A stretch of 64,000 nucleotides of DNA from Hymenobacter jeongseonensis (lineage in GTDB: Bacteria > Bacteroidota > Bacteroidia > Cytophagales > Hymenobacteraceae): contig NZ_JADQDQ010000013.1 in NCBI RefSeq assembly GCF_015694725.1, positions 1-64,000 of the forward strand, given 5' to 3'. Position numbers and translations under genes: made by a program. The notes beneath the pieces are model-generated. The model had not been told where the DNA came from. It ran no database searches and saw only the letters and a program-made list of their open reading frames with translations. Below, piece by piece: positions 39,788 to 60,502 of the stretch (positions within the stretch are counted from its first letter, which is position 1; each line of letters begins with the position of its first letter).

Positions 39788-39814
39788 TAGTTTGGTAGAT
39801 ATTGGATATAGCAC

Positions 39815-42136: not shown

Positions 42137-43024
42137 CTATGACGGCCCACTTGAGGGCGCGAAGTGGTACCCTAACAATTTCCTGATTGAACGCTCTGTG
42201 AGCGTAGCCACCAGCCTCCGCAGGTCAGTTAGTGAGCCGATGAGCGTGAGCACAGTCACAACGGTCAAAATAATTTTGACGATTGAGTTATCCGCGTAGC
42301 GCACGTTGAGGAACACCAATAGGAGCACCACGCCGAAAAAGGCTGCCCAGGCTATCACTGCACTAAGCCTTTTGACTCGTTCCAGAAAACGTTCAGCGAA
42401 TTGATCTGCCGTAAAACGTTGCTCTGGGTTGAGCAGCCCCTTGGCCTCAAACGCCGCCCGGATGGCGCGCATGGAGACGATAGTCAAGAACTCTGACTCA
42501 AACCAGGGAAAGGGGTGCCGCCATAGGTGCGACACCATCTTGTTCAGCCGCTCGGCATCGGGCTGGCCTTGGTCGGTCATTAATCGGAACACCACCGAAA
42601 TCTGGTGGTAATCCTCCCGAGCGTTGTGGTTGCCGGCCAAGATGTTCTCGAAGGTCTTGTTCACAAGACGCTTTTCGTTCTCGTCAACTGGGCGCAATCG
42701 AATCACCTGCCGCAGCCAGCCGTCGTCCAGTTGGAACTTGCGTACCGTGCACACGAGAGCGAAAACGAGATAGTCATTGTGCACCCACTCGGTGTCTGGT
42801 CGCAGTCGGCGGGTGCTCAGCTTTAGGTAGAGCGCCGCGGCAGTTGTACGGTCGTTGTCGCGCACGCTGGTCAGCAGGTGCTTCACGGCGCCTTCGTTAT
42901 CGGCCGGGTCTAGGGCACCCAGTGGTGGCATCGGCTGCCCGTCAAGGAAGTCGATGAAGAAGCAAACGAGCGGGGTGGCTCGTAGGGGCTTCCAGTAATC
43001 CGCTTTGGCTTCTAGAGAAACCAT
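42137..43024 (-). CDS. Argonaute-associated membrane protein (putative effector)
   Basis: A 295-aa protein: a soluble helical N-terminal region (about 1-215) and a closely spaced pair of transmembrane helices (about 219-240 and 246-265, with short VRYADNS loop), then a basic cytoplasmic tail. The start overlaps the end of the Argonaute gene by 13 bp, so both are co-translated. Inactive prokaryotic Argonautes are known to be paired with nuclease, Sir2 or membrane effectors; the membrane type is expected to depolarise or permeabilise the membrane on guide-target recognition. That role is inferred. Confidence 0.68.
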   Translation of the reverse strand: MVSLEAKADYWKPLRATPLVCFFIDFLDGQPMPPLGALDPADNEGAVKHLLTSVRDNDRTTAAALYLKLSTRRLRPDTEWVHNDYLVFALVCTVRKFQLDDGWLRQVIRLRPVDENEKRLVNKTFENILAGNHNAREDYHQISVVFRLMTDQGQPDAERLNKMVSHLWRHPFPWFESEFLTIVSMRAIRAAFEAKGLLNPEQRFTADQFAERFLERVKRLSAVIAWAAFFGVVLLLVFLNVRYADNSIVKIILTVVTVLTLIGSLTDLRRLVATLTERSIRKLLGYHFAPSSGPS

Positions 43025-45237
43025 TTCTTTTCGCGCAATTGGGAGTTGGCAATCCCCGCATTCCAGCCCGGGATGCTACGCAGGTCACTGAGCTGGCGCG
43101 TCAGTAGGTTGGCGTACAGGAGCGTCGCGGGAGTATAAATCGGCTCGAAATTGCGGAAAGACAGGCGGCTGAATTTGAACACCTGCTGCACCACGTACTG
43201 GACATCTAGGAAGGTCGACTTCTCGTGAATGCTGACCAGCACGGGCGTGGGAACGCCGTGCCGAACATTTCGCATCTCCTTATTACCCACGAGCTGAACC
43301 AAGCATTGGCGCGAGCCCAGCGGCCAGGCATACCCCCTACTCGGAACAAACGCTCCCTTACCGCTCGTCCGAGAGTCGTCGTGCAGCAGGTAGGGATGAC
43401 GTTCCGCCAACGTCACAAAGGCGAACTTGATGTCATACTGCGGGTATTCATTCACCAACTGCGCCACCACGTCAGCCTCCAAGTTCTTGATGGGCTTGAA
43501 GATGTGAAAAATCAGGCGGATGCGGTCCTGCGGGCTCCAACTATACTCGCTGGAAAGCCGGTCAAGCGCATCCTTCAAGTTGCTGAGAAGGGTGGCAAAA
43601 TACTCGTCGAAAGGTACGTGGCGCGTTCGGCTATTGGTCAGGTACTTCCCATCGGCCGCGAAGAAGGTGCTGATGCCGACAAAACGGGTTTGGGCAGCAC
43701 CGGCATACTGGCTATCACGAAGGATGGTGTGGCCAATGCCGATAACCAACTCCCGGTCCACGCTCTGGTCCACTGGAATGGTCCAAGGGGTGCCGCCCAG
43801 CTTGGCGTAGAGTTGCAGCGCGATGCCGTCGATGGTGAACGTGGGGTTCGCAGCCGTCTCCGGCTTGATAAACTGCACGACTGTGCCCTGCATGTACAAA
43901 AATGACTTTACCCGGAAGTACGGGTTATCCACATTGGGCAGGTTTCGGAAGTCCGCTGACGTCTCCATAATGGCCAAGTCGAAAGCTGCGTCCAGCTTCT
44001 GCACACCTCGGTCGATGGCCGCGAGGTAGGCGGCGGCCGAGTAATCTCCAATTTCCTCGATGATGTAGGTCATTGAGGTCAGCCGGTACTTGTTCACCAT
44101 ACCGTTGCCGAAGAAGCTGTGTTGCGGAATACCGTCTCGTAACTCGGCCAGGAACTTGGTGAAGATGCTCGCGTTTTGCCTGTGAAAGACCACGAGCACC
44201 TTGGGGGCATTGAGTGAGAAGCCCACGGACCTGCTATACGGCCCGTGCTGGTTCAGGCCTTGCGATGGGAAGAAGCTCTGACGGGTCTTGCTGATGTCAA
44301 AGATGAGGCTCGGCTCACTCAAGGAGAAGCCAGTGGGTGCGGTTACCGTGTTCCGGTCACTGATGCGAAAACCAAAAGCGTCTTGGTTACGATACTCCAG
44401 TCGCCGCAGCCACTTGCTTAAGGACTCAATCTGGCTCATGACCACATCGGGCTTGAGCTGCCGGGCCTCAAGCTCTTTGATGGTACGCATGATGGTGTCC
44501 GCACGGGGTTCCCCCACGTTCCACGCCAGAAAGGCAGTAATGTTAACGCGGGAGTTGTGGAGGTGCAGTTCGTGCAGGGGGTAATCTGCGGGGCCCTCAT
44601 TGGTCAGCACGGTGGCTACTCCGCTGATAATCCGCTGCACGGGGCCGAGCAGGGATATTTCTGGTGCAACAACCCCATCCGAGTAGTCAAGCGCCTGGAT
44701 GCCAATAACTTCGCGCCCCACTAGGTCGAAGCCCGTTTCGGCTAAGTCCTGGCAGGTCCGGTTCAGACGCCATTTGTAGCGGTGGTTGACGAGCATTCCA
44801 AAGGTCAATTGCTCCGCGTTGCTTTCATTCTGCCGGAATTGCACCTCGGTGATGCGCTTGAAAGTTAACACGTCGCGCAGTGGTTCGGGCACCACGTCGG
44901 CCGCCAAATCCAGCTCGCGGCGACGGGCAGCGAAGCGGAAGGGATAGAACTCTGGTTGCAGGTCTGGTTGGTCTCGCTTCACCGCCCGGAAGAAAAGGTG
45001 TTTAATCAGCGAGCTGACCACCTGTGGCTCCTGTTGAATGGATAACCGCGCCGTTTCTCCAATCGTAGCCGCACCCTCCTCCCCTGGTGAGATGTAGATG
45101 TAGTCGCCGCGTCGAAAAAAGGAATGCGTACTGTTGTGCTCCTGACGCAGACGCCCAAGCAGCCCGTCTTGATACGGCACGCGCTGTACGTCAAACTCCG
45201 TGAAGTCAAACTCAATTGGGTAGAAGTTGGATTTCAT
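43012..45237 (-). CDS. prokaryotic Argonaute, catalytically inactive PIWI
   Basis: A 741-aa protein with pAgo hallmarks in order: MID-like part (APKVLVVFHRQNASIFTKFL), the guide-binding stretch NPYFRVKSFLYMQGTVVQF (Lys and Gln contact the 5' phosphate), LYAKLGGTPWTI, the PIWI core from about 490, and the typical C-terminal end PGWNAG...LREKKWFL with a terminal Leu carboxylate. The first catalytic Asp position is Gly502 (VIGIGHT) and LIFHIFKP has no Asp, so the DEDX tetrad is broken: it should bind but not cut targets. It resembles long-B pAgos, which sense foreign nucleic acid and activate a partner protein. Confidence 0.85.
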   Translation of the reverse strand: MKSNFYPIEFDFTEFDVQRVPYQDGLLGRLRQEHNSTHSFFRRGDYIYISPGEEGAATIGETARLSIQQEPQVVSSLIKHLFFRAVKRDQPDLQPEFYPFRFAARRRELDLAADVVPEPLRDVLTFKRITEVQFRQNESNAEQLTFGMLVNHRYKWRLNRTCQDLAETGFDLVGREVIGIQALDYSDGVVAPEISLLGPVQRIISGVATVLTNEGPADYPLHELHLHNSRVNITAFLAWNVGEPRADTIMRTIKELEARQLKPDVVMSQIESLSKWLRRLEYRNQDAFGFRISDRNTVTAPTGFSLSEPSLIFDISKTRQSFFPSQGLNQHGPYSRSVGFSLNAPKVLVVFHRQNASIFTKFLAELRDGIPQHSFFGNGMVNKYRLTSMTYIIEEIGDYSAAAYLAAIDRGVQKLDAAFDLAIMETSADFRNLPNVDNPYFRVKSFLYMQGTVVQFIKPETAANPTFTIDGIALQLYAKLGGTPWTIPVDQSVDRELVIGIGHTILRDSQYAGAAQTRFVGISTFFAADGKYLTNSRTRHVPFDEYFATLLSNLKDALDRLSSEYSWSPQDRIRLIFHIFKPIKNLEADVVAQLVNEYPQYDIKFAFVTLAERHPYLLHDDSRTSGKGAFVPSRGYAWPLGSRQCLVQLVGNKEMRNVRHGVPTPVLVSIHEKSTFLDVQYVVQQVFKFSRLSFRNFEPIYTPATLLYANLLTRQLSDLRSIPGWNAGIANSQLREKKWFL

Positions 45238-45271: not shown

Positions 45272-45592
45272 TCAATATGATAAGTCAGCAGTAATTACTA
45301 GCACAGGGCCTCTTAAAATGTCATCTTCGTCCTCAGTGTCTACTAAGATTCCTGTTATCTCGGAAAAAACCTTCATAGCAGCCGGATTTGCTTCGCCTTC
45401 AGAGTCAAACACGGAATAAATCAGGTATCCATTCCCATTGGCAAGTACATCTACCAAAAAAGGTGCGCAACCCAGAATCTCTGCAGCTGATTCTGAGCTC
45501 TGAATCACCTGGCCGCTCACCTCATTTAAACAGAACTCTGCTCCCACGATAGCGACCGGAGCTTCACTTGGCTGGTAAAGTGTAGTATTCAT
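45272..45592 (-). CDS. small acidic protein upstream of the Argonaute gene
   Basis: A 106-aa protein from the ATG at 45592, with beta-rich, Asp/Glu-rich sequence (ILVDTEDEDDILRGPVLVIT). It ends 34 bp before the Argonaute start on the same strand, so it may be the first gene of the operon and a third component (accessory or inhibitor). No family recognised; independent origin is also possible. Confidence 0.5.
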   Translation of the reverse strand: MNTTLYQPSEAPVAIVGAEFCLNEVSGQVIQSSESAAEILGCAPFLVDVLANGNGYLIYSVFDSEGEANPAAMKVFSEITGILVDTEDEDDILRGPVLVITADLSY

Positions 45593-45685: not shown

Positions 45686-46123
45686 ATGGCCGATGTGCAT
45701 AGCAAGGATACTCGCAGCTTCAACATGTCCCGCATCAGGAGTAGGGATACAAAGCCTGAAACCATAGTTCGACAATATTTGCATCGAGAGGGTCTTAGGT
45801 TTCGCTTACATCATCCTGATTTGCCAGGCAAGCCCGATATTGTGCTGCCACGTTTTCAGACTGTAGTACTGGTGCATGGATGCTTCTGGCACGCCCACGA
45901 CGACAAACCATGTTTTCGTCTGCCATCATCCCGCACCGAATGGTGGCAGCGTAAACTTGGTTATAACAAGGCTCGAGACTGGCAGCAGCAGCGTGAGCTT
46001 ACCATGTTAGGCTGGCGTGTGATTGTAGTATGGGAATGTGAGCTAAAATCTTCCCAACGCGCTGAAACATTAAAGCATCTTATTCAGGAAATACTACACC
46101 CCCTTGACGACAGTTACGATTAA
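45686..46123 (+). CDS. vsr: very short patch repair endonuclease
   Basis: A 145-aa Vsr protein of normal size. Motifs: MSRIRSRDTKPE, PGKPDIVLPR (catalytic Asp of the PD-(D/E)XK-like core), VHGCFWHAHDD (His and Cys/Asp zinc and metal ligands) and WWQRKLGYNKARD. Vsr nicks next to T:G mismatches created by deamination of 5-methylcytosine and so protects methylated recognition sites. The matching cytosine-C5 methyltransferase is about 10 kb downstream in the same array, implying one functional unit. Confidence 0.93.
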   Translation: MADVHSKDTRSFNMSRIRSRDTKPETIVRQYLHREGLRFRLHHPDLPGKPDIVLPRFQTVVLVHGCFWHAHDDKPCFRLPSSRTEWWQRKLGYNKARDWQQQRELTMLGWRVIVVWECELKSSQRAETLKHLIQEILHPLDDSYD

Positions 46124-46209
46124 TAAAAGAAAAAAAAGAGCGATGGCATAAGTGATAGAGTTGTGTTTTTCGAGGCTACTTTGCGTCGGGCATCCATACT
46201 CTACCATGC

Positions 46210-49200
46210 ATGAATTATATCTACTGGAATAAATTAGTTGCTGATTTCCTTTTCACACCATCCCGTAAAAACCAAGAAGTTTTCCTCTATTTGACGGAAG
46301 ACGATATTGTACAAGCCTTAAAAAAAGCTGCTGCTGGTTCTGGCACACAAGAGTTGGTTCGCCGAATGGCTGAATGGGAGGAAGGGGACATACTTTCCGA
46401 TTTCTGGAAAGCACTGAGGGAAGGACCTCTATTCTGGCGCTGTCCTCCAAATCGCGCGCATCAAGACTACTGGGTGGGTGAAAATGGCCGTTCCAAGCGT
46501 CAATCCCGACCGGCTCCAACTAATCCCGCTCAATGCGCGACGTATGCACTTGCAGACTGGAGACGCGCCCCAGCATCCAGTACTAATACTAGCAGCCGCA
46601 AATTCTATCATGAGCAGGGTGCCCTAGCACAAACTACTCCGTTGCACCTGCTTTACTTGGCTTGTTTCACCATGCCATTCAGCATGGCAGATGCCACACA
46701 GCTTAATGCTGGCTTTTATGAGATTTGGCGGGCTTTCTTTCTAAGCAAGGGACTCATCTCCGGCGGCCATCATTTTCCTGACAACTCCCTCACGCAGCTC
46801 AACAGCAATTGGGCTGCAATGTGGGAGGAACTGGCACGCTGGAGTCAGGAAGAACTCGGTAGTGAGCGGGGTATATTACGTGCCAGGCAATTAGGGGGCT
46901 ACAGTTATGTTGGGTGGCCACAATCACAATGTCTGCTACCTCCCACTGCATTAAATCAACTGCCCCGGTTTTTTGCATACCATCACCTTATGCCTGGCAG
47001 CCGTATTGCAGCTGGGGAATTGCGTCAGCTTTTGCTACAGGGGCCATTGGTACTACCTGCTGCGACTCTTAGAGAGCTGCGTACCGACACTGTTCTTGGA
47101 CAAGCCCTTACCGATATTGTATCGCGCAAGCTGCAAGCATGGAGTGGAAGCACGGGGTATCGTGAGCGTAGAACAGTAATCCGCAACGGTGTTCCAAGAG
47201 TAGAGGAAATCACCCTCCGTGGCAATACATATGGTACGCTTCTGCCGTTCCTGCCAATCGACCTCGCTGAGAGCGAAATGGTCAGCTGGTCTTATCGGCT
47301 TTCTATTAGAGCTCCGCTGCCAGAGAATCTTACAATTACTGTCCCAGGTCAGCCGCCAGTAGCGGTACAACCAACTTCAGCGGAATGGTCTTGTGCTATT
47401 CCAGGTGTTTTGCCCAGTCCCATCCTTCAGGAATTTACGGATGCTCACAACGGGTGGACACTTAGTGCCAAACTCCTTCCATTGCAAGTTTTTGCACCAG
47501 GTGGACGCTATGGGTTCTATCAATATTGGGCTCCAATCCCAGCTTTGGAGCACGGTACTGAGCTATTGGTATTATGTGAAAGAGAACTCGCCAGTGGAGT
47601 CCGTCAACTCGCCCAATGCGCCAACGCTTTTCAAGACTGGTCAAATTTTGCTGGGCTTCCGGCTAATTACAGTCTGTTTTGGCTAAGTAATTTACCTGCC
47701 AATACTTATTCATTTATTGGAGCTCCGGTAGCTATTGAAACATACATCAGGGCCCAAGGAGGTCTTGACTGCGGTTTTCGTTCTTTCCTGAGAAGTTTGC
47801 CGCCGTCGTTTCGCCTAATAAACGGAGCAGTAGGGCAGCAACTCGGCTGCACACTCCTCAACATCGGCCAGACGGCCGAGTTGCTGCCAGATAACCGAGC
47901 CCCACATGACCAAAGCGGTTGGATTCTGCCTGCCGATTTACCATCAGGACAGCCATTCCGCATAACCGGAATCGGGAAAGCAGAGCTCCAAACACTGCCG
48001 TTTAAGTTACAAGAGCCTGCACTGCCTACCTCCTACCAGGTCCCATTGCGAGGTCCTCGCGGAGAGGTTGCAAGCCCCGAGGAAACATTGGTTTACAATG
48101 GCACTTGCTTGTCGGGTCACATCGGCCAGCTACACCAATTGCACCTACGAAACGGGGGAGTTCAGCCGCAGTTTGAGCCAGTCATTCCTTTTGGTCATCT
48201 TGCCCCGCCAGCTACTGCTTTCACGCAAGATAATTTTGGAGACTCACCCAATGACTTACTACTCCACTACCTGTCAAGCGTAAGCAAGCTAACCAACCAG
48301 GCCTTTGGCGAGGCTCTGCAAACCATACACGATGCACGACGTCTTTCTTGTCCTGCACCAGCCCGCTATCCCACACCCACTACTGCCGACCGACAAGCTG
48401 CATTTCGCTTGTATAGCCAACTCGGCTTTGGTGATTATGATTCTCTTGCTGGTACAATTCAGGTACTGCCCCCTGCCTTGCTGCGCCTCCCGATTGCCGG
48501 TAGTGCCGGGCGCCGAATGCTGCTCACGGGGGCCCGCACCCCACAGCTTTTACTGCAGTTGCGTTCCGCTGCCGAAGCCCATGGGGTCCTGCTGACGATT
48601 AATAGTCAATTCAATGGCGAAAGTATCTGGAATAGCCTTTCTGACCCCGAAACAACCATTAGTTCTGCTACTACTCAGGCCTTTCGTCAACTCCTGCCCA
48701 ACCGTGTAGAGCTGTTAGCCCATGGCCACCCAACGCAGGGATACGGTGATGATAAACTTAAAGGCCTGGCAGCGCAATGTGGTATCCAGTTTTGCGGCGA
48801 TATGATCTCAGCCGACCTGCTGCAATTCTCAGGAAGCCTTATTGAATATCAACAGGCGCTGGCTCCTTACACCGAGGAACTGCCCACCGACTGGAAGCAG
48901 TCATGGTTTGACCCGCAAACGCTTAAATGGTACCCTGGAGCCGGTGACCGCGCCTTTTGCTTAACCGAATATGAGTACCGGGTGTACCGGCGGCAATGCT
49001 TCCTATGGCAGGATGGTATTCCCTACGCAGTTGATAAGAGCTGGGGACGGTACCTAGTATTGCAGCAAGCTAACCAACAGGTCCTGCACTACAACCACAC
49101 CCGGCAATTGCTCAAGGTGCCAGCTGCCGCTCCCTTTCCTGAAATTCCCGCCCGCGCCGTTGCCCTTCTGAGCGGTTATGCCCCAGCCTTGGAGTGGGAC

Positions 49201-49308
49201 ACGCGTGAGAAGAGGCTTTACAACGTGTACCAAACCGGAAACACCTACACCCTACTGCATAGCCGCCTATATTCTGTCCTTGGTCAGCGGCTTCACGAAA
49301 CTCTCTAA
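46210..49308 (+). CDS. large protein of unknown fold, partner of the DUF1998 helicase (DruH-like?)
   Basis: A 1032-aa protein lying 9 bp before the DruE-like helicase gene. It is rich in Leu, Pro, Gln and aromatic residues. Its C-terminal third has LYSQLGFGDYDSLAG, VLPPALLRLP and GRRMLLTGARTPQLLLQL, which reads like a conserved core, but I do not recognise a catalytic motif. Two-gene cassettes of a roughly 1000-aa unknown protein (DruH) and a roughly 2000-aa DUF1998 helicase (DruE) define Druantia type III, and size and order match. Homology to DruH is not shown by sequence here. Confidence 0.6.
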   Translation: MNYIYWNKLVADFLFTPSRKNQEVFLYLTEDDIVQALKKAAAGSGTQELVRRMAEWEEGDILSDFWKALREGPLFWRCPPNRAHQDYWVGENGRSKRQSRPAPTNPAQCATYALADWRRAPASSTNTSSRKFYHEQGALAQTTPLHLLYLACFTMPFSMADATQLNAGFYEIWRAFFLSKGLISGGHHFPDNSLTQLNSNWAAMWEELARWSQEELGSERGILRARQLGGYSYVGWPQSQCLLPPTALNQLPRFFAYHHLMPGSRIAAGELRQLLLQGPLVLPAATLRELRTDTVLGQALTDIVSRKLQAWSGSTGYRERRTVIRNGVPRVEEITLRGNTYGTLLPFLPIDLAESEMVSWSYRLSIRAPLPENLTITVPGQPPVAVQPTSAEWSCAIPGVLPSPILQEFTDAHNGWTLSAKLLPLQVFAPGGRYGFYQYWAPIPALEHGTELLVLCERELASGVRQLAQCANAFQDWSNFAGLPANYSLFWLSNLPANTYSFIGAPVAIETYIRAQGGLDCGFRSFLRSLPPSFRLINGAVGQQLGCTLLNIGQTAELLPDNRAPHDQSGWILPADLPSGQPFRITGIGKAELQTLPFKLQEPALPTSYQVPLRGPRGEVASPEETLVYNGTCLSGHIGQLHQLHLRNGGVQPQFEPVIPFGHLAPPATAFTQDNFGDSPNDLLLHYLSSVSKLTNQAFGEALQTIHDARRLSCPAPARYPTPTTADRQAAFRLYSQLGFGDYDSLAGTIQVLPPALLRLPIAGSAGRRMLLTGARTPQLLLQLRSAAEAHGVLLTINSQFNGESIWNSLSDPETTISSATTQAFRQLLPNRVELLAHGHPTQGYGDDKLKGLAAQCGIQFCGDMISADLLQFSGSLIEYQQALAPYTEELPTDWKQSWFDPQTLKWYPGAGDRAFCLTEYEYRVYRRQCFLWQDGIPYAVDKSWGRYLVLQQANQQVLHYNHTRQLLKVPAAAPFPEIPARAVALLSGYAPALEWDTREKRLYNVYQTGNTYTLLHSRLYSVLGQRLHETL

Positions 49309-49317
49309 TCTACCAGA

Positions 49318-52300
49318 ATGAACGACCCTATTGGTTCCTTCGATACCATCCGCGACAATTTTGTTCGCTACGTTGAAACTGCCTTCCGCACCAAGTTCGA
49401 TGAGCCTGGCGAGTTTGAGGACCTGCGCAACAAGCTTCTTCATCAGGATGGTGTACTCTATCGCCAGCCTTGGGCAGAACCTTTGCCAGAATACCAAAGC
49501 AGCGGCAAAACCGTGGCCCTGCTTACAGACGCTGACTTGCCCGGCCTCTCACCTATGCAGAGTGACCTATTCCGCGGATTAATTCAGGCCGGACTAATCG
49601 ACAACCCTGCTGTCGAGCTGTACGAGCATCAAAAACAGATGCTATCTAATGCTCTGGAGCATAAGCACTGCGTCATCACTTCCGGGACGGGTTCCGGTAA
49701 AACAGAATCCTTTCTACTGCCACTGCTGGCACAGATTACAAAGGAAATTCCAACCTGGCCAGCTGCTGGCACCATGGAGCCTCCTGCCAAAAACTGGTGG
49801 TCAGGGACTAACCGTTTAACCAATGGCCAAGTAGCTGACGCAAATGGTGCTTCCACCAGCGGCCTTAAGGCTGCTGCGCAGCAGCGCGGGCACGAAAATA
49901 CTGGCCGACAGGCCGCGGTGCGGGCGCTCATCCTGTACCCAATGAACGCCTTGGTCGAAGACCAGATGACACGACTGCGCCGGGCTCTCGACTCCGACGA
50001 TGCCCGCCAGTGGTTCGATATGAATGCCCGTGGTAACCGCATTCACTTCGGTCGTTACACCGGTGCCTCTCCTGTAGCGGGGTCCCTGCGGGAGCTTGAC
50101 GCCAATGGCCGCTTAAAAATTAATGGCTACAAACTGGAGGAACTGCGTGAAGAATTAAGCCAGTACAGCCGCAACGTCGACGCTATCAATGAGTTTACTA
50201 GTCTGCCCGCCAATCAGACGCGCCGCAAAGACTTAGTATCATTTTTTCCACGGCTCGATGGAGCCGAGATGCGAAGCCGGTTTGATATGCAGGATGCTCC
50301 GCCCGACATCCTTATTACAAACTTTTCGATGCTCAGCATTATGCTGATGCGCACCCTCGACGGCCCAGTTTTTGAAAAAACACGCAACTGGCTGGCAGCA
50401 GATTCCAGCCACATTTTTCACTTGGTCATTGACGAACTGCACCTTTACCGTGGCACCGCCGGCACTGAGGTTTCTTACTTGCTGCGGCTCGTACTTGACC
50501 GCTTGGGCTTGAACCCGAACCATCCCCAGTTGCGCATCCTAGCCAGCAGTGCCTCGCTCGAAACCGAAGGAAAAGCTGGCGAATACAGCAGCCAATTTCT
50601 GGAAGACTTTTTTGGGGTCCCTCCTAAAGAGGACGGTACTTCTTCTTTTGAAATCATCAGAGGCCAGGAGATAGACGCCGCGCTTCCCAGCGAAGCATTA
50701 CTACCTCTCCCTCTCGCGCCATTTGCAAGCCTTGCCAAAGCTTCGGATGCTAATACCGAACTACCAGATGCCGACGCCGCTTTAGCGGCGGATGCACTTA
50801 ATACCTTCAGCCATTGCGCGCCTATAAGTCCTGCCCCTGCTACGGGATTAGAGGCATTAGCAACCAGCCTTTGGTCATCTGAGCTCCGTCTGCGTGAAAG
50901 ATTATACAGTGCATGTCGCGTTACTGATACAGAAACCGGACGCACCAAATTGCGGGCGGTTCCAACATTGCCAGCCGTTGGTGATAAGTTAGCTCCTGGC
51001 TTTCACTACTTGGCTGAATCACTTTTTGGTCAAGGCCATACCCAGCAGCAGTTGCATGACGCCCTAAGGGGACTTTTCATTGCTCGAGGCTCCTTTGAAG
51101 GCAAATTCCCCGCAATAGAGAAGATGGCCCGCTCTAATGCACGCAGCCTGCCGCGGTTCCGTTTCCACTTCTTTTTTCGCAACATTGATGGCCTCTGGCT
51201 TGGCTTGCCGAGCTCCGACGACATGGCACCTGATAGCGAAGGAAAACTAATTCGCAGACCCTATGGTGAGTTACTAGCTCATACCTCATTGCGTACCACT
51301 GCCGGACAACACGTTCTGGAAGGCCTGTACTGCGACCGCTGCGGCACCGTTTTTTACGGCGGAGCGCGCTTAAACTGGGACTTACCTGGCATTACCGATG
51401 GGAGCAAATTTCAAATGCTTTCTGTGAGTCCAGATATTGAGGGAATCCCCGAAAAAGCTGCGGAGACACTGGTTGAACGGCGCAGCTATGCCGATTATGC
51501 TGTGTTCTGGCCCCAAGCCGGGCAGGAGTTTGTACAACACGAGAGGGCCAGGGGAAATGGCGACTTCTGGAAGCAACCTGTGATTCGGGGGGCAACGGTA
51601 AATAGTGAATCGTATTGGCGACCTGCCCGCATTGATAGCCGGAGTGGCCGGGTAGAAACCGGCGAAAACTTTGCCCCCAGCACTGGAACCGATGGACCAG
51701 ACTGGATATACGGCCGAGTATTTCGGGTTGATGGCACACCTAGTACGGAGACAGCTCAACGCTTACGGGCAATGCCGGCAGTTTGCCCTGGCTGTGGTGC
51801 CAACCACGAATTGGGCGTATACCGCCTCAGTTCAGTGCGTGGGTTTCGGACTGGTTTCGGCCAAACAAGCCAAACTTTCGCCAAAGAGTTATTGCTACAA
51901 TTGCCCGCAGGGGCCGATACCCGCAAACTCGTTGTCTTCTCTGATAGCCGAGATGACGCTGCTCAGGTGGCCAATGGCATCGAGCGCAACCATTATGGTG
52001 ACCTTTTACGTGAACTGCTAACACAGTATTTGCAACAGCATGTGGCCACAGGGGCTGAATTGGTAACAGCAATCTCTAGTCCCTCACTAACACCAGAGGA
52101 ATTTGAAGAAATCCGAAAAAAGCAGCCCACGCTGAGCCTCAAAATTCGAACTTGGTTACGACGGGCAAAGGATATTACCAGTGGTTTCGAAGATGAGCGA
52201 GTGGAAGCTCAGGAAGCCCTACGTGAGCTTGCTCTCCTGAACCAGCGTGTTGTTTCAATTAAGAGCTTGGCGCAAGGATTGGACGTCGCGGGGCAGGCGC

Positions 52301-55300
52301 CTGTCGGGGGTGGTGCTTTGCTGCGCGAGTTTCTTAAGCTTGGTGTTAATCCAGGTGGTAATGATTTAGAGTTACAGTACACTGATGCTCAGAATCACCG
52401 AAATCCATGGTATCAGGGAGTTGACTATTCCCAGCCAAACCAGCCCAAATGGAACAGCGTTAATGTTGGATTTGCCGACCGTATCAGCGAAGGCCTTACC
52501 CAGCGAATTGCCGAATTGCTATTCCGGCGGTTATTCTACTCTCTGGAAGCTTCCGGGTTAGGAACACCAGTTGTCAGGCCTGAGCCGGAAGCAGCAACCC
52601 TTTCTGCCTTACCGACTTCGCTGAGAAGTCACTCTTCGGATATTCTCAGCGCTGTGGTTCGGATTCTTGGTGACAAGTATAAATACGTCGGTAGTGAATA
52701 CCAGCGCGACAACCAGGATGCCCTTCAGAACGCCGAGGACTTTCCCGGTGCTATAAAAAAATATTTAAAGGCGGTGTGCGCCCACCTTGAAGGGTCTGAC
52801 GCTAACTGGTATGATGTAGGGGAATGGGTTCGCCAGCAGTTGCGTCGCTCAGCTAATGGCATGCTACCTGCCATCAATGCGTTCGGGAATGTTGACGTTA
52901 TTAACCTCTGGCTTAAAGCAGCCAGAGCTGCTGACCCTTACTGGAAATGCAAAACCTGCCACCGCATTCATCTGCACCGTGCCGCGGGCATTTGTACTAG
53001 TTGCCGAAAGCTGCTTCCTGCCACGGCCCACTCCCGAAACGGTGTTCCGCAAACCTGCCGGCATTTGTGGAAGAAAAATTATCTGGCCTACCACGCTGCA
53101 CTGCACCCCCGCGAATCCATCCGCTTACACTGCGAAGAACTCACGGGTCAAACCGACGACCAGTTTGAGCGCCAGCGGCACTTTCGCAATGTCATTCTGT
53201 CGAATGATGGCCCGGCGCAAGTCCGGCAAATAGATTTGCTTAGCGTTACCACAACATTGGAGGTAGGCGTCGACATTGGAGCTCTGCAGGCAGTAATGCT
53301 TGGTAACATGCCCCCACAACGCTTCAATTACCAGCAACGTGTGGGCCGGGCGGGCCGCCGCGGGCAGGCATATTCAGTTGCATTTACGTTCTGCCGCGGG
53401 CGCAGCCACGACGAGTTTTACTTTGCCAACCCACACAAAATTACGGGTGACGACGCGCCCACACCATTCCTAGCCATCGACCAGCCCCGCATCCTACGGC
53501 GGGTACTCGCCAAGGCAGCCCTTCGCGAGGCATTTAGTGCTGCACAGGCGGCTGGAGGCGGAGTTCATGGTGAGTTTGGTGGTACCGTTGAATGGGCCGG
53601 CTACCGTTCATCTGTGTCATCTTGGCTAGAAGACAAGGGAGAAGCATGGGCCACAGACATCCTGGGTGTAATGACCGGACGCAAAAACGCCCATCTCGTT
53701 CCCGAGCTTGTTGCTTGGGTTGGTGACTGCAAGAAAGGTTTACTTTCTGACGTAGACCGGGTGATGAACAGTAACACCCCAGGTGAGAGCACTGCAGATA
53801 AGCTTGCTCAGGGTGGTGTGCTGCCCATGTTTGGCATGCCTACATCTGTGCGCAACCTGCAATTGGGTGCCCGCCGCGACCAGCATGGGCGCTGGACCCT
53901 GCCTCTCATCGACCGTCCTCTCGATATGGCTATCTACGAATTTGCCCCCGGCGCTCAAAAGCTGAAGGACAAATTCTACCACAAGGCTATTGGCTTCACC
54001 TCAACACTTGACGAGAAGCGAGGTCCTAACAACAGTTCAATAATCACTAACCAAGACGACGGCCCCTTCTTGCTTCGGCGCTGGATGCTCTCCTGCCCCG
54101 TCTGCTATTTCACTAAAACATACGAAGCTGACCCCGATCAGCGTATTGCTCCGCCTGCTCCCGAATGCCCCAATCCCAAGTGTAAAGCGCCTCTGCTACC
54201 GGCTGAAAATGGTATTAGCTCGGTGCATATTTTCGAAGTCGTGTCGCCTAGGGCATTCCGGACTGATTACAGTGCCGGCCATGATGACCGTGAGCAAACT
54301 GATTCATCTACTCAGCGTCCGCCTCTTCTAGCAGAAACCAATACCACAAGCGCCAAACCTGCAGAACTATCGCTTGGCAACGGTTGGGCGCTTCTAGCTG
54401 ATGATGATATCACCTGGCGACTGAACAAAGGCCCACGCGATGCATTTTTTGCTGGTGAGTTCCGTCCTAGCTGGCAGGAGCGGCAAATAAATGCCACCAC
54501 TTGGACCCGTAAACAATGGATGTTTAAGGAGGATGGTGTTGAGCGAGTAGCCCTGGCAGCCAATAAAAAGACCGAAATCATCCGGTTGCATCCCGCTACG
54601 GTACCCATTGGCATCAACCTTGATTTCACCCGTTCGACCGGACCGCAACGCGACGGACTCAAGTCCGCTTATTACTCGGCTGCGTTTCTGTTGCAGCGAG
54701 CCATTTCTGATAAGCTTGATATAGAACCAGATGAAATTGAAATTGGTGGCATCACCCAAATAAGTTTAAATGATGCCCGTCGCCTAGAACCCATGGTTGG
54801 GCAAATCGTGCTCAGTGATGCGTTGCCAAATGGCTCGGGCTTCGTCCGGCGTATGTTTGAACATCTCAACGCCACCCCTCTGTTAACTGAGATGCTGAAT
54901 GGCGCCCGCGCAGGCACCTACTTAGGAACAATCCACAGTTCAAATCACAAGAGAGACTGCAAAAGCGCCTGCTATCAATGTCTGATGGGCTACCGAAACA
55001 TGAGTTACCATGCTCTGCTCGATTGGCGGCTGGCCCTAACACTACTACGCATCATGCGTGACCCTGATTATCTCGCAGGTACCGATGGTAAGTTCGACAC
55101 CCCCGAACTTGAGGGCTGGCTCGACACTAATCATCAACAGTTGCAAATTTTCGCCACCAGTTTCTTTTCCACACCTACCACTCCAGGCGAAATTCGTTGG
55201 CTAACCCCTAAAAACGGCCCTGCAATACCTGCCCTGGCCTGGGGCCCTAATAAGCGGAACCTAGCGTTAGTAGTGCATCCCCTTTGGGACCTGAAACACC

Positions 55301-55473
55301 CAGCTGAGAAGACTTGGCTGAATGAAATCCTGGCTTTGGCGCGTTTGGCAGTCGCTGAGAATGAGGGTGGCCTATTGCAATTTATCGACTCGTTTAACCT
55401 AGCCCGCCGCTCTGGGCAGTGTTACCAGTGGTTGCGGGGAAGCACCAATGGCCAGCCTCACAATCTGGTGTAG
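49318..55473 (+). CDS. giant DEAD-like helicase with DUF1998-type C-terminus (DruE-like)
   Basis: A 2051-aa protein. Superfamily 2 helicase motifs: Q-like LYEHQKQML (101-109), Walker A TSGTGSGKTE (121-130), LILYPMNALVEDQ, DELH (372-375), and in the second core LLSVTTTLEVGVDIG and QQRVGRAGRRG (about 1339-1349). Several Cys pairs (CDRCG, CPGCG, CKTCH with CTSC, CPVC with CPNPKC) suggest zinc modules. The C-terminal SACYQCLMGYRN (about 1882) with YHALLDWRLAL is the DUF1998 signature. DruE of Druantia and DISARM-type helicases act in phage defence. Fusion of helicase and DUF1998 in one about 2000-aa chain fits DruE rather than DISARM. Confidence 0.86.
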   Translation: MNDPIGSFDTIRDNFVRYVETAFRTKFDEPGEFEDLRNKLLHQDGVLYRQPWAEPLPEYQSSGKTVALLTDADLPGLSPMQSDLFRGLIQAGLIDNPAVELYEHQKQMLSNALEHKHCVITSGTGSGKTESFLLPLLAQITKEIPTWPAAGTMEPPAKNWWSGTNRLTNGQVADANGASTSGLKAAAQQRGHENTGRQAAVRALILYPMNALVEDQMTRLRRALDSDDARQWFDMNARGNRIHFGRYTGASPVAGSLRELDANGRLKINGYKLEELREELSQYSRNVDAINEFTSLPANQTRRKDLVSFFPRLDGAEMRSRFDMQDAPPDILITNFSMLSIMLMRTLDGPVFEKTRNWLAADSSHIFHLVIDELHLYRGTAGTEVSYLLRLVLDRLGLNPNHPQLRILASSASLETEGKAGEYSSQFLEDFFGVPPKEDGTSSFEIIRGQEIDAALPSEALLPLPLAPFASLAKASDANTELPDADAALAADALNTFSHCAPISPAPATGLEALATSLWSSELRLRERLYSACRVTDTETGRTKLRAVPTLPAVGDKLAPGFHYLAESLFGQGHTQQQLHDALRGLFIARGSFEGKFPAIEKMARSNARSLPRFRFHFFFRNIDGLWLGLPSSDDMAPDSEGKLIRRPYGELLAHTSLRTTAGQHVLEGLYCDRCGTVFYGGARLNWDLPGITDGSKFQMLSVSPDIEGIPEKAAETLVERRSYADYAVFWPQAGQEFVQHERARGNGDFWKQPVIRGATVNSESYWRPARIDSRSGRVETGENFAPSTGTDGPDWIYGRVFRVDGTPSTETAQRLRAMPAVCPGCGANHELGVYRLSSVRGFRTGFGQTSQTFAKELLLQLPAGADTRKLVVFSDSRDDAAQVANGIERNHYGDLLRELLTQYLQQHVATGAELVTAISSPSLTPEEFEEIRKKQPTLSLKIRTWLRRAKDITSGFEDERVEAQEALRELALLNQRVVSIKSLAQGLDVAGQAPVGGGALLREFLKLGVNPGGNDLELQYTDAQNHRNPWYQGVDYSQPNQPKWNSVNVGFADRISEGLTQRIAELLFRRLFYSLEASGLGTPVVRPEPEAATLSALPTSLRSHSSDILSAVVRILGDKYKYVGSEYQRDNQDALQNAEDFPGAIKKYLKAVCAHLEGSDANWYDVGEWVRQQLRRSANGMLPAINAFGNVDVINLWLKAARAADPYWKCKTCHRIHLHRAAGICTSCRKLLPATAHSRNGVPQTCRHLWKKNYLAYHAALHPRESIRLHCEELTGQTDDQFERQRHFRNVILSNDGPAQVRQIDLLSVTTTLEVGVDIGALQAVMLGNMPPQRFNYQQRVGRAGRRGQAYSVAFTFCRGRSHDEFYFANPHKITGDDAPTPFLAIDQPRILRRVLAKAALREAFSAAQAAGGGVHGEFGGTVEWAGYRSSVSSWLEDKGEAWATDILGVMTGRKNAHLVPELVAWVGDCKKGLLSDVDRVMNSNTPGESTADKLAQGGVLPMFGMPTSVRNLQLGARRDQHGRWTLPLIDRPLDMAIYEFAPGAQKLKDKFYHKAIGFTSTLDEKRGPNNSSIITNQDDGPFLLRRWMLSCPVCYFTKTYEADPDQRIAPPAPECPNPKCKAPLLPAENGISSVHIFEVVSPRAFRTDYSAGHDDREQTDSSTQRPPLLAETNTTSAKPAELSLGNGWALLADDDITWRLNKGPRDAFFAGEFRPSWQERQINATTWTRKQWMFKEDGVERVALAANKKTEIIRLHPATVPIGINLDFTRSTGPQRDGLKSAYYSAAFLLQRAISDKLDIEPDEIEIGGITQISLNDARRLEPMVGQIVLSDALPNGSGFVRRMFEHLNATPLLTEMLNGARAGTYLGTIHSSNHKRDCKSACYQCLMGYRNMSYHALLDWRLALTLLRIMRDPDYLAGTDGKFDTPELEGWLDTNHQQLQIFATSFFSTPTTPGEIRWLTPKNGPAIPALAWGPNKRNLALVVHPLWDLKHPAEKTWLNEILALARLAVAENEGGLLQFIDSFNLARRSGQCYQWLRGSTNGQPHNLV

Positions 55474-55477
55474 TCTA

Positions 55478-56320
55478 ATGGCTATTACAATCACTGCCCC
55501 TGCCAGGATTTCTCCTAGCCAGTATTTTCGGGTACTTGCCTGTCCATATCAATCACTACTCGCCTCGACACCTGAAGCAAGATCGTTACCTGGCATGTTT
55601 GGCAGCGGGGGCGCGTCTGAAGTGGGGACTGTTGTGCACGGCATGCTGAAACGGTCGGTTGCGACCGACCTCTCTGATGCAGTCGCATTTGAATCTGTTT
55701 GGCAGGAACTGTTAAGTGAGAAGGAAGCAGACCTAATTCGGAATGGAGCTTCCCATCTTGTTCCTTTGACCTACCGAGCTAACGGCTATGCAGTTACCAA
55801 GCTTCTTTTAAGCTGGCACCTTGCCATGATGCCCAAGGCTGCCCCATTTCCTGGTGACTCAGATATTCCATTTGGTGCCGAGAAGTGGTTATCAGACAAC
55901 TCCGGCTCCGTAGGTGGTATTGCTGACCTCATTCGCTTGGGAATCGACGGGCCCGAAATTGTCGACTACAAAACCGGTTCAATTTTTCAACTTAATTCAA
56001 ACGATGAAGCTGAAATAAAGCCAGTTTATTCTCAGCAATTGCAGCTTTACGCGGCCCTTCTCCATGAGCAGACTGGTCACTTTCCCGCACATCTTTTTTT
56101 AGCAGATTTAGCTGGCAAGGAACACGAAGTAGAATTTACCGAACTTGGCTGCCTCCAACTTTTAAGCAACGCTCGTCGCTTGCTTACTCAAATGAAAGCA
56201 GCCGTAAACGCCGGCAATCCTGAGTCACTTGCAATTCCAAGCCAAGAGCAGTGCCGTTACTGCCAAGTACGTCCATTATGTAGCCCATATAACGATTGGA
56301 CTGAACAACTGGGAGCATAA
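55478..56320 (+). CDS. Cas4/RecB-type nuclease with iron-sulfur cysteines
   Basis: A 280-aa protein from the ATG at 55478, five bases after the helicase stop. All RecB-nuclease motifs are visible: LACPYQ (first Cys), GTVVHGML (His), GGIADLI (Asp), EIVDYKTGS (D-Y-K), QLQLYAALL (QxxxY), and a C-terminal CRYCQVRPLC, giving four Cys for a 4Fe-4S cluster as in Cas4 and AddB. It probably degrades DNA together with the helicase, like an AddAB-style pair. No CRISPR genes are nearby. Confidence 0.85.
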   Translation: MAITITAPARISPSQYFRVLACPYQSLLASTPEARSLPGMFGSGGASEVGTVVHGMLKRSVATDLSDAVAFESVWQELLSEKEADLIRNGASHLVPLTYRANGYAVTKLLLSWHLAMMPKAAPFPGDSDIPFGAEKWLSDNSGSVGGIADLIRLGIDGPEIVDYKTGSIFQLNSNDEAEIKPVYSQQLQLYAALLHEQTGHFPAHLFLADLAGKEHEVEFTELGCLQLLSNARRLLTQMKAAVNAGNPESLAIPSQEQCRYCQVRPLCSPYNDWTEQLGA

Positions 56321-56405
56321 TTAATTACCTGCTCGGGGTGTATCCGTGCCATAGCCGTACTTTTATTCTTTATTCCAATTCCGGTTTTACCTAATCTGCC
56401 CTGCT

Positions 56406-57659
56406 GTGTCTGCTATCCCTCCTCCTCATTTAACCGTTACCCATCAAATACCTGTCCTTTCCTTTTTCACAGGTGGCGGCCTACTCGATATGGGTTTTGA
56501 AGAAGCGGGCTTTGATATTGTGTGGACTAACGAATTGGACCCTGGCTTTGCTAAGTTATATTCTGAAGGGATAACTAGTTGGCGGAGAAAACACAAACCT
56601 AGTGCCCCTGAGGCTCGGATTTCCCACATTGGAAACCTGCTAGACATTACACCTGCCGAGATTGCACGACAGGCATTCCCTAAAGGCAAACCCTCACTGT
56701 TTGGCATTATTGGAGGGCCACCCTGCCAGGATTTCAGTATCGCTGGCTCTCGCCAGGGTATTGAGGGCGAGCGCGGCAAAATAACTCCTGCTTACTGCCA
56801 GGTTATTAACGAACTGCAACCAGCGTTCTTTGTTTTTGAAAATGTTACCGGTCTACTTCAAAAAAATCACCGGGCCGAGTTCGATAAGCTCCGGGACGCA
56901 TTCAATAGGCACTACATCACTGATTTCGCTCCCCTCAACGCCTTGGATTATGGAGTGCCTCAAAGCCGGGAACGATTGCTGCTCATCGGTCTGCGCCGTG
57001 ACTTAGTGCAAGTACCCAAATCCGGCCTTTTCTCGGATGCTATACCACCAATCGGCTGGGCAAACTGGAAACGTGAGCAAAGCCACGCTGGCCTGCGCAC
57101 TCAGTTTCAGTGGCCAAGAGTTGAAGAATTAGAAGTTAGGCCCGCCGCTCCACTGAACCCTCAGCAATTGGAATTATGCGTCAGTCGTTGTTTGCATTCC
57201 GAAGAAGATACATCGCTCCCCAACGCCTGCGACCGATTCAAACTCTATTCCGCTATTCCTGCCAAAACCCCCGAAGGCCTTGTAAATAACCGGTCTTTTA
57301 AACGCTTACACCGTTACCGTTACAGCCCCACGGCATGCTACGGCAATAATGAGGTACACCTCCACCCATTTGAGAATCGCCGCCTCTCTGTAAGGGAAGT
57401 ACTCCGTATTCAGAGTGTTGACGATAGCTATGTATTATCAGAGGGCCCTCCTCTGGGCAGCAAATTTAAAATGATTGGTAATGGTGTGCCTGTCGCTCTT
57501 GCCAATGGTGTGGCTCGCACCATTACCCGCCTACTACAAGAGTTTTGCGGGTTTCAGCAGGTTTCAGCGCCAATAGGTATGAGTTCACCCGCTCATGTAT
57601 CGCAATATACCTTCAAGCGTCCCATCGACATCAACGATGAGGTGCTTTTTGACTTTTAG
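56406..57659 (+). CDS. dcm: cytosine-C5 DNA methyltransferase
   Basis: A 417-aa enzyme from a GTG start at 56406. Conserved blocks: I SFFTGGGLLDMGFEEAGFDI (SAM binding), IV GGPPCQDFSIAG (catalytic Cys), VI FVFENVTGLL, VIII SRERLLLIGLR, IX RRLSVREVLRIQ, X GNGVPVALANGVA. The target-recognition region between VIII and IX is about 150 residues; its target sequence cannot be read. It is expected to mark host DNA against the helicase/nuclease proteins of the island. Vsr is in the same array. Confidence 0.93.
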   Translation: MSAIPPPHLTVTHQIPVLSFFTGGGLLDMGFEEAGFDIVWTNELDPGFAKLYSEGITSWRRKHKPSAPEARISHIGNLLDITPAEIARQAFPKGKPSLFGIIGGPPCQDFSIAGSRQGIEGERGKITPAYCQVINELQPAFFVFENVTGLLQKNHRAEFDKLRDAFNRHYITDFAPLNALDYGVPQSRERLLLIGLRRDLVQVPKSGLFSDAIPPIGWANWKREQSHAGLRTQFQWPRVEELEVRPAAPLNPQQLELCVSRCLHSEEDTSLPNACDRFKLYSAIPAKTPEGLVNNRSFKRLHRYRYSPTACYGNNEVHLHPFENRRLSVREVLRIQSVDDSYVLSEGPPLGSKFKMIGNGVPVALANGVARTITRLLQEFCGFQQVSAPIGMSSPAHVSQYTFKRPIDINDEVLFDF

Positions 57660-57723
57660 CAGTTTTAATTCAACGCACCCCAACAATACGCGCCATAATT
57701 ATTACTGACAATCAACAGATTAC

Positions 57724-58491
57724 TTGTCCGCCATCAAACTCTCTCCTACCTACTCGGCTACAGTAAATGCCATTGCAGAGCTTTACCTTACCCGCCGCCG
57801 ACAACCCTCGCTGCGGACGCTGGTGCCAGCGTTAGCCCAATGGGTGCAGGCTAACCAAGAACATAACCGCCTAGAAAGCGGCCACCTGAATGTATTCAGG
57901 TTCATGCGGCCTGGCGAAATAACCCACAGTCGCTTGCTGGCATTCTTCCTGGACGCGCAGGCGGCCCATGGACAAGGAACATTGTTTCTGACGCAATTTT
58001 TGAAGCAAATAGATATCTGCGAGCCAAGCTGCGGCCCTTGGCTAGTTACTGCTGAGGCCGGGCGTGTGGATGTACTGCTACGCCGTGCCCACCCTCACGC
58101 CGTGGTAGTAATAGAAAACAAATCAAACTATGCGCCCGACCAGCCCAATCAGCTTTACCGTTACTGGCACAAGCAGATTTACCTCGCTCAACTAGCCCGT
58201 AAATGCTCTGCTGCTGAGCGACAAACTCCATCCCGAACCCAATACCGGGTGATATATCTTGCTCCGGCAGTGAATAAGCAGCCAGACTCACACGCCATAT
58301 GCCGCCCCGATGGCTGGGAACTAAAGTGGCCAGAGTTACCATCTGTTGTGCCTTTGGGTTTAGTTGAGCACCATCAATTTGGACTTTTAATCGTGGCATG
58401 GCTCACAGCCTGCTTAGCCCAACTTCCGCCTAATAATCACCGATTGCGCCAGTTCACACAACAATATCTTCAGTTCTGGCAGACCTTGTAA
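57724..58491 (+). CDS. PD-(D/E)XK nuclease superfamily protein (PDDEXK_4-like)
   Basis: A 255-aa protein starting with TTG at 57724. It has the family pattern SRLLAFFLDAQAAHGQG near residue 65, then RVDVLL and VVVIENKSN as the D...ExK active site, followed by QLYRYW. This build matches the PDDEXK_4 family, usually in defence islands. It lies 64 bp after the methyltransferase and could be the cognate restriction enzyme, in which case the pair is a type II-like restriction-modification unit. Confidence 0.8.
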   Translation: MSAIKLSPTYSATVNAIAELYLTRRRQPSLRTLVPALAQWVQANQEHNRLESGHLNVFRFMRPGEITHSRLLAFFLDAQAAHGQGTLFLTQFLKQIDICEPSCGPWLVTAEAGRVDVLLRRAHPHAVVVIENKSNYAPDQPNQLYRYWHKQIYLAQLARKCSAAERQTPSRTQYRVIYLAPAVNKQPDSHAICRPDGWELKWPELPSVVPLGLVEHHQFGLLIVAWLTACLAQLPPNNHRLRQFTQQYLQFWQTL

Positions 58492-59092: not shown

Positions 59093-59305
59093 TATTAACC
59101 CGTTGGTTAGTAAATAATTAAGCTTACAACTATTCCGAATTGTGGGCCGGTACTTGACCGTGCTAAAGGGTTCTATTTGTGTAGGCACAAAAGCTCCTCC
59201 GTGTGGAATATTTACATTAGTGGCTGTGCAGGCTGCCTCTTTAGATTTTATCGAGCTTCTGCAGTATTTAGCGCCTAATAGGCATGTGATTTTTTGCGCT
59301 TCTTA
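59093..59305. other. 213-bp gap before the paralogous pair
   Basis: AT-rich spacer. I see no clear hairpin or promoter, but its length suggests that the downstream pair has its own promoter. Confidence 0.4.
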
Positions 59306-60502
59306 ATGCTGCATTCCCCTCATCTGGTCACCGCTACTGATTTAACTGAACGCCACTACAGGCTTGAAGAACGCGGGTTATTCCCAGACCTTGTTCAGCG
59401 CTTAATCCTGAGTTCTGACTTGTCGGTGCGTGGCCTTCAGTTTCGTTCTTATGAAAGCATTGCCATCAGTGGCTGGGATGGGATTGTCGAACAAGCGGAT
59501 GGTTCCACCTTCGTACCCACCGGTGCTTCCCGCTGGGAAATTGGTACCAACGTGGATGCCCAATCTAAAGTCAAAAGTGATTTCGAGAAGCGCAACGCGC
59601 CTCCAGCTCCACCAAAAAAACGAGGCCGGCCCAAGAAGAATCCGCCTGCTACATCCGCAGTAGGGGTTACGGCAGTAGGGGCTCCGACCGCACCTCCAGT
59701 TGGTATAGTGTCACCAGAAGAGCTAGTGTTCCGTGGCAAAACGACATTAGTTTTTGTAATCGGACGAGAATGGCCCGACAACAGAACATGGGCAGCTGCG
59801 CAAACAAAAGCAAATGAATGGAAGGCCATCCGTGTATTTGATGCGAGTGACATTTACACCTGGCTCACCCAGCACCCTGGTCTTCATCTCTGGCTTTCTC
59901 GGCAGATGGGAAAGCCTGTACGAGGCACCAACGACCTTGAAAACTGGTGGGCCGACTGGGCTTTCTCGATAAACATAAGGATTCAGCCGGACTGGCTGAT
60001 AGCTGGTCGACAACAGCACAGAGACCGCCTAATAGAATGGCTTAAGGAGGGAGATGCTATTTTCCCTATTTTTGGAAAATCCACTCGGGAAGCTCAAGCG
60101 TTTCTGGCCGCCTGCGTTATGTCTCTGGCAGAGGATGACCGCTTGACGCTTCTGGGACGCATTGTGCTAGTGGCACGAGAGGACGTCTGGGAAGAATTAG
60201 TTTGGGAAGAGAAAAAGTTAATTCTGGTTTTCGATTTCTTATCGGAAAGACAGTACGTGTTATGCTCGATGGCCGCTCGACAAGGTCACCGGGTAATAAT
60301 AACTAACCCACAGCAAGACGAAAGAAATATACCAAGTAATAGCCTGCTACCTCCAATTGGGGTGGAAGAATTACGGGCGTTACTGATTCAGCAAGGAATG
60401 CCAGCGCAACTTGCATCAACCAATACCCAGCTGGCCAGCCAGCTATTTACTGGGTCAAACTCGCAGGTCATGAAATGGCCTTTTTTGAACCCTAATTATT
60501 AG
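59306..60502 (+). CDS. short paralogue of the giant protein downstream
   Basis: A 398-aa protein from the ATG at 59306, chosen because its first residues align with the giant protein (MLH...TATDLTER vs MLH...TASDLEHW). Shared blocks are FPDLVQRLI, SGWDGIVEQADGSTFVPTG then SRWEIGT, a strand with VFVIGREW, LTQHPGLHLWLSRQMGK, ENWWADWAF and WLIAGR. It ends after about 380 residues, where the large protein continues for at least 780 more. A basic Pro/Lys-rich stretch (PPKKRGRPKKNPPA) is an AT-hook-like insert. This is either a truncated duplicate or a separate short subunit; the gene itself is intact. Confidence 0.65.
   Translation: MLHSPHLVTATDLTERHYRLEERGLFPDLVQRLILSSDLSVRGLQFRSYESIAISGWDGIVEQADGSTFVPTGASRWEIGTNVDAQSKVKSDFEKRNAPPAPPKKRGRPKKNPPATSAVGVTAVGAPTAPPVGIVSPEELVFRGKTTLVFVIGREWPDNRTWAAAQTKANEWKAIRVFDASDIYTWLTQHPGLHLWLSRQMGKPVRGTNDLENWWADWAFSINIRIQPDWLIAGRQQHRDRLIEWLKEGDAIFPIFGKSTREAQAFLAACVMSLAEDDRLTLLGRIVLVAREDVWEELVWEEKKLILVFDFLSERQYVLCSMAARQGHRVIITNPQQDERNIPSNSLLPPIGVEELRALLIQQGMPAQLASTNTQLASQLFTGSNSQVMKWPFLNPNY

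Follow-up and report, generated by a model that had tools for sequence, protein, structure and literature searches.

Known Druantia Systems and Placement of the Locus

Druantia type IV was published in 2021 as a set of DruE, DruF and DruL that lacks DruM and DruG, two proteins of type II (PMC8565338). A literature search, whose coverage was incomplete, retrieved no paper on this type beyond PADLOC. Type II comprises DruM, DruF, DruG and DruE, and type III comprises DruH and DruE. The DruE proteins of types I and II end in inactivated Vsr domains (PMC12458937). In type III, DruE is a helicase-nuclease effector and DruH is the probable sensor; the system engages 3′-tailed DNA and has no methylase (PMC13192584). 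Recent mechanistic work concerned type III, and little or no published mechanism was found for types I, II, and IV.

The locus analyzed here lies in a 64,000-nt stretch of DNA (the window) from the 5.19 Mb genome of Hymenobacter jeongseonensis. It is a variant of Druantia type IV and not type IV as published. Homologs of DruE, DruF and DruL were present and DruG was absent, as in type IV; DruK models already stand in PADLOC-DB v2.0.0, and both the type and the present family occur in many phyla. However, DruM was not absent: the window locus carried a fused F-L protein and a methylase (M) that is obligate in the genus, usually together with Vsr.

DruE2 was the best model for the helicase and DruM2 the best match of the methylase, which recalls type II; of the three loci that resemble type II (L023, L024 and L057), the last two also had Vsr alongside. 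In contrast to type II, no protein of the cluster matched the PADLOC DruG models, and DruL and DruK were present. In the DruE phylogeny, the window protein fell within an F/L-type clade (SH-aLRT 99), separate from L023 and L024, which are of the DruG type. Locus L057, whose layout is similar to these two, and the Anaeromyxobacter locus, in which K, M and Vsr accompany a distant FL, grouped with the DruG-type loci. Type III shares the YprA-family helicase core and a large sensor-type partner, but its DruE bears a C-terminal PLD nuclease, and methylase, K and Vsr are missing from it (PMC12458937, PMC13192584). DISARM and ARMADA follow a similar logic of YprA-family helicase, DNA methylase and nuclease; however, they have a separate DrmB gene, or a PglX-type methylase with a BrxHII helicase, and none of these was found in the cluster.

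Gene Organization and Genomic Context

Six open reading frames, all on the forward strand, were confirmed in the order and almost exactly at the positions given in a preliminary description of this DNA:

45686..46123 (+), vsr, very-short-patch mismatch endonuclease (145 aa; TIGR00632, 138.7 bits)
46210..49308 (+), FL, DruF-DruL fusion (1032 aa; PADLOC DruF4 and DruL4)
49318..55473 (+), DruE, YprA-family SF2 helicase (2051 aa; PADLOC DruE2 and DruE4, full length)
55478..56320 (+), DruK, RecB/Cas4-type PD-(D/E)XK nuclease (PADLOC DruK, 93.5 bits; Pfam PDDEXK_1, 69.5 bits)
56406..57659 (+), M, DruM-like C5-cytosine methyltransferase (PADLOC DruM2, 392.6 bits; Pfam, 173 bits)
57724..58491 (+), PDDEXK_4 / PDC-S26 nuclease, a passenger (PF14281 and PDC-S26)

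The gap between FL and DruE was 9 nt, as first reported. The DruK reading frame opens at 55448, 26 nt inside druE, and its nearest relatives begin at an ATG equivalent to 55478; from this internal ATG the DruE–DruK gap is 4 nt rather than the 5 nt first given. The remaining gaps were looser: 86 nt between vsr and FL, 85 nt between K and M, and 64 nt between M and PDDEXK_4. Inside the cluster there was no match to a Bacteroidota −33/−7 promoter, and sigma-70-type and terminator-like sites occurred at chance level.

The G+C content decreased from about 0.60–0.67 to about 0.53 beyond 32 kb, with local swings. The cluster sits in a dense defence island, and other defence-type genes were found in this low-G+C half. 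A NACHT protein with NNH3 and pentapeptide repeats (37022–39814, −) and a RelA/SpoT-domain protein (35748–36830, +) are probable further defence genes of the island.

Components of the Cluster

DruE was matched over its full length by PADLOC DruE2 (1695 bits) and DruE4 (1553 bits), and by DrmA with only about 32 bits. It belonged to the Druantia branch of the YprA-family helicases, which upheld the Druantia-like character first proposed. Its Walker A (GTGSGKTE), DELH and QRVGRAGR motifs were conserved in 13 sequences. Solved structures related to it were 9wae (719 bits), whose entry name is just "Helicase," and 9tu7 (114 bits). At the C-terminus, the Asp corresponding to Vsr D51 was missing in 15 of 15 aligned sequences. 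An hhalign comparison aligned this region with Vsr at the expected motif, but with a probability of 0.3%; because the profile match was weak, the Vsr-like fold of the C-terminus rests on the published account of DruE (PMC12458937) and on the missing Asp. Judged by these residues, the C-terminal nuclease domain is apparently dead.

The 1032-aa protein had been described as unknown. It matched PADLOC DruF4 at residues 201–626 (E 1.4e-31) and DruL4 at residues 728–993 (E 2.5e-32), with an F part at about residues 1–640 and an L part at about 680–1028. These parts stand as separate genes in other genomes (L012, L014, L016, L020, L022, L049, and L081), and the protein is therefore a fusion of the DruF and DruL of published type IV. 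The AF2 model of FL (pLDDT 80, pTM 0.51) had a low-confidence linker at residues 649–679, at the F/L split point; the L part modeled by itself reached pLDDT 84 and pTM 0.81. Some PADLOC DruF2 models are 1011–1030 aa long and their C-terminal part matches DruL-type proteins, so that PADLOC probably contains fused forms already, without naming them. No match to FL was found in Pfam or NCBIfam, nor in a profile search of the PDB. Neither the FL model nor that of the L part had a significant structural match in the PDB, and FL had none among viral structures (best E about 0.1). Several of the top PDB matches of the FL model were tandem Ig/FN3-like proteins, which are of little meaning at E about 0.1.

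In DruK, residues H64, D160, D173-x-K175, Q197, Y201, C32, C269, C272, and C278 were invariant in 13 sequences. Based on these residues, it is predicted to be an Fe-S-type RecB-family nuclease whose catalytic residues and four cysteines are intact. The first supposition, that no described Druantia has a Cas4-like nuclease plus Vsr, did not hold for the nuclease, as PADLOC already contains DruK. The methylase kept its PC and ENV motifs in 16 of 16 aligned sequences. In Vsr, E25, D51, W68, and H69 were kept in 8 aligned Vsr sequences, and the enzyme is predicted to be active.

Co-occurrence and Conserved Order

A total of 120 Hymenobacter genomes were searched separately with each component (FL, E, K, M, PDDEXK_4, and Vsr). 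DruE was found in eight genomes with an intact locus and as one decayed copy in Hymenobacter G106; FL occurred in the same nine genomes. K was detected in the same eight intact-Druantia genomes and only alongside FL and E. M matched in exactly these eight and in 0 of the 112 others, a coincidence with a chance of about 1e-12 if phylogeny is ignored. No orphan FL, E, K or M was found across the 120 genomes. In the preliminary description, tight spacing was taken to mark FL, DruE and DruK as a core trio. The tight core was indeed conserved, but a restriction to three genes was rejected, for the linkage of M in Hymenobacter was as strict as that within the trio; M therefore joins FL, E and K in a core of four genes, obligate within the genus. 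In the decayed locus of G106 (L051, 6542–15670, −), FL and DruE were in pieces and K was lost, and vsr and a different methylase lay nearby.

A scan of public genomes with the DruE alignment gave 14 loci, and genus and phylum scans added more. The comparison covered 19 distinct loci that have both a DruF and a DruL part, with E present by construction; 17 carried K and 16 carried M, and Vsr occurred in 11, always together with M. The order F/L-E-K-M was fixed across these loci. Their hosts comprised ANME-1 and ANME-2 archaea, Planctomycetes, Neomarinimicrobiota, Anaeromyxobacter, Selenomonadales, and other Bacteroidota; the arrangement FL-E-K-M was present in Hymenobacter, G475, G270, G212, ANME-1, Planctomycetes, and Neomarinimicrobiota. 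There were exceptions: F-L-E only in ANME-2, F-L-E-M-Vsr without K in Selenomonadales, and F-L-E-K without M in G374. Thus, neither M nor K is universal. In ANME-2, F-L-E stood without adjacent K, M or Vsr (L016, 1505–10348; L022, 3127–12117); it is possible that this is a minimal type IV, or that the nuclease is located elsewhere.

The window is a dense island that also holds the pAgo, NACHT-pentapeptide and RelA/SpoT-domain proteins, in which unrelated defence genes might have been gathered by chance. For the cluster this is highly improbable: it was refuted for FL, E, K, and M by their strict co-occurrence across 120 genomes and by a gene order shared between archaea and several bacterial phyla, and the conservation of the neighborhood predicted for the trio was borne out beyond this genome. 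Chance clustering holds for the PDDEXK_4 gene.

Pairwise-distance correlations, which are open to inflation by host phylogeny, were 0.95 for FL-E, 0.96 for E-K, 0.94 for FL-K, 0.77 for E-M, and 0.79 for E-V (Mantel p 0.001 or less). Within Hymenobacter the E-M correlation was 0.81, and that of Vsr was weak. Since E-M fell below the values within the FL-E-K trio, M may have been swapped in some lineages; the methylases of the Anaeromyxobacter and Selenomonadales loci were distant. A search of the phage collection gave no match and that of the plasmid collection two distant matches; the IMG/VR scan gave one relative on a viral contig, with FL-E-K (L059).

The family is rare and known, and E, F, L and K are already in PADLOC, so the novelty first claimed against the named subtypes held only in part. 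What is new is that M is a fourth component, obligate in one genus and usual across phyla, contrary to the definition of type IV, which is to be amended in that a methylase is usual in the sampled loci. The recurrent F-L fusion and Vsr as an optional partner of M are also new, as is the contrast between an intact DruK and an apparently dead nuclease domain in DruE.

Vsr and the PDDEXK_4 Nuclease

Both nucleases, the methylase and Vsr had been counted in a single array. M and DruK belong to its core, and Vsr is a frequent, losable accessory, an optional helper of M; the PDDEXK_4 gene does not belong. Vsr adjoined the cluster in seven of the eight intact Hymenobacter loci, once truncated and once on the opposite strand; it was absent from the H. 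psychrotolerans locus and a pseudogene in ISL-91. It was found in 25 of the 120 genomes, including eight of the nine with Druantia. The gene lay upstream in most Hymenobacter loci and downstream of M elsewhere. Among the 19 F/L loci, its restriction to those with M (11/16, against 0/3 without M; hypergeometric 56/969, about 0.06) is suggestive only. Vsr would gain a simple role from this arrangement, as the repair partner of the methylase.

The PDDEXK_4 gene was detected in four of the 120 Hymenobacter genomes and in no other Druantia locus examined. It was rejected as a member of the system because three of its four carrier genomes had no Druantia and all other Druantia loci lacked it; it is a passenger. 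A vsr gene, a 5mC methylase and a nuclease make up a classic set, and in the window these three flank the trio, as would be seen if Druantia genes had been inserted into a type II restriction-modification set. This is very unlikely. PDDEXK_4 accompanied M in no other locus, so that the co-inherited cognate restriction enzyme of such a set is missing and the explanation is refuted for the nuclease; M itself was found only with the trio in Hymenobacter.

Proposed Mechanism

We consider it probable that the locus is a Druantia IV-like set of four genes, FL-DruE-DruK-DruM, with an optional Vsr, which would work as follows. DruM would methylate the host DNA at cytosines within a fixed motif. A complex of FL and DruE would load on invader DNA without this mark, or on aberrant structures formed as that DNA replicates, and DruE would translocate along the DNA. 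DruK would cut the exposed strand in place of the apparently dead C-terminal Vsr-like domain of DruE, and Vsr would repair the T:G mismatches left by deaminated 5mC of DruM. The roles of DruE and of its sensor partner were assigned by analogy with Druantia III (PMC13192584), by which FL would be a sensor or loader. DruK is the putative effector nuclease, M would mark self DNA, and the whole is presumably an anti-phage defence.

That the four genes travel together suggests a system that cuts DNA without the cell's own methyl mark. Because the linkage of M is obligate, we infer that its mark shields host DNA from FL-E-K. In its full form, this proposal makes the 5mC of DruM the licence by which host DNA is spared by FL-DruE-DruK, as in self/non-self restriction, with cutting outsourced to DruK, the nuclease domain of DruE having died. 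It is put forward tentatively, and could well be right. If true, it would link helicase-driven Druantia with classical modification-based restriction.

M and Vsr could instead form a linked and functionally separate methylation cassette, epigenetic or a shield against other restriction enzymes, and FL-E-K could sense an infection-specific DNA structure regardless of methylation, as in Druantia III, which has no methylase and engages 3′-tailed DNA (PMC13192584). The weaker co-divergence of E-M than of E-K points the same way, and some F-L-E and F-L-E-K loci lack M; because of these methylase-free loci the explanation was retained, as a rather unlikely one. However, M and FL-E-K were always together in Hymenobacter (8/8 intact loci, 0/112 other genomes), with the exception of one decayed locus, and M co-diverged with E within the genus (r 0.81) and held the same position across phyla. 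An intact methylase beside a separate intact nuclease raises two testable questions: whether a Druantia reads DNA modification, and which protein cuts when the nuclease of DruE is dead.

Other Genes Near Druantia Loci

A pAgo gene (PADLOC pAgo_II, 744 bits) with its partner "Aga_Unknown" adjoined Druantia in three of the eight intact Hymenobacter loci (window, 42137–45237, −; L013, 19035–22171, −; L021, 3492–6619, +). Close pAgo relatives occurred in seven of the 120 genomes, and four of these seven also had Druantia (hypergeometric p about 0.0003–0.0005). Away from Druantia, pAgo stood alone or adjoined a type IIG enzyme, and it was rejected as part of the system because it is equally often found away from Druantia.

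Divergent from vsr, a small protein of ~100 aa without a Pfam match was conserved in the window (45272–45592, −) and in Hymenobacter M29 (L011, 5972–6280, −). A standalone DUF3427 protein, not present in the window, was divergent beside vsr in three Hymenobacter Druantia loci (L012, 539–949, −; L049, 18065–18499, +; L050, 18232–18711, +). One of the three copies was also weakly SRA-like, and the protein is possibly a reader of modified bases.

Downstream of the cluster, two related proteins in tandem (59294–60502 and 60523–63999, +) shared an N-terminal "GWDG...WE(I/L)GTN" motif; the second is at least 1159 aa long and runs off the window. They had no Pfam match and just a marginal PD-Lambda-4_A match. 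Another Druantia arrangement was found in a Bacteroidota locus (L083, 3269–13868, −), in which a DruE variant had UvrD/GajB-like, F-like (595 aa) and L-like (423 aa) proteins as partners, with vsr and a methylase after them.
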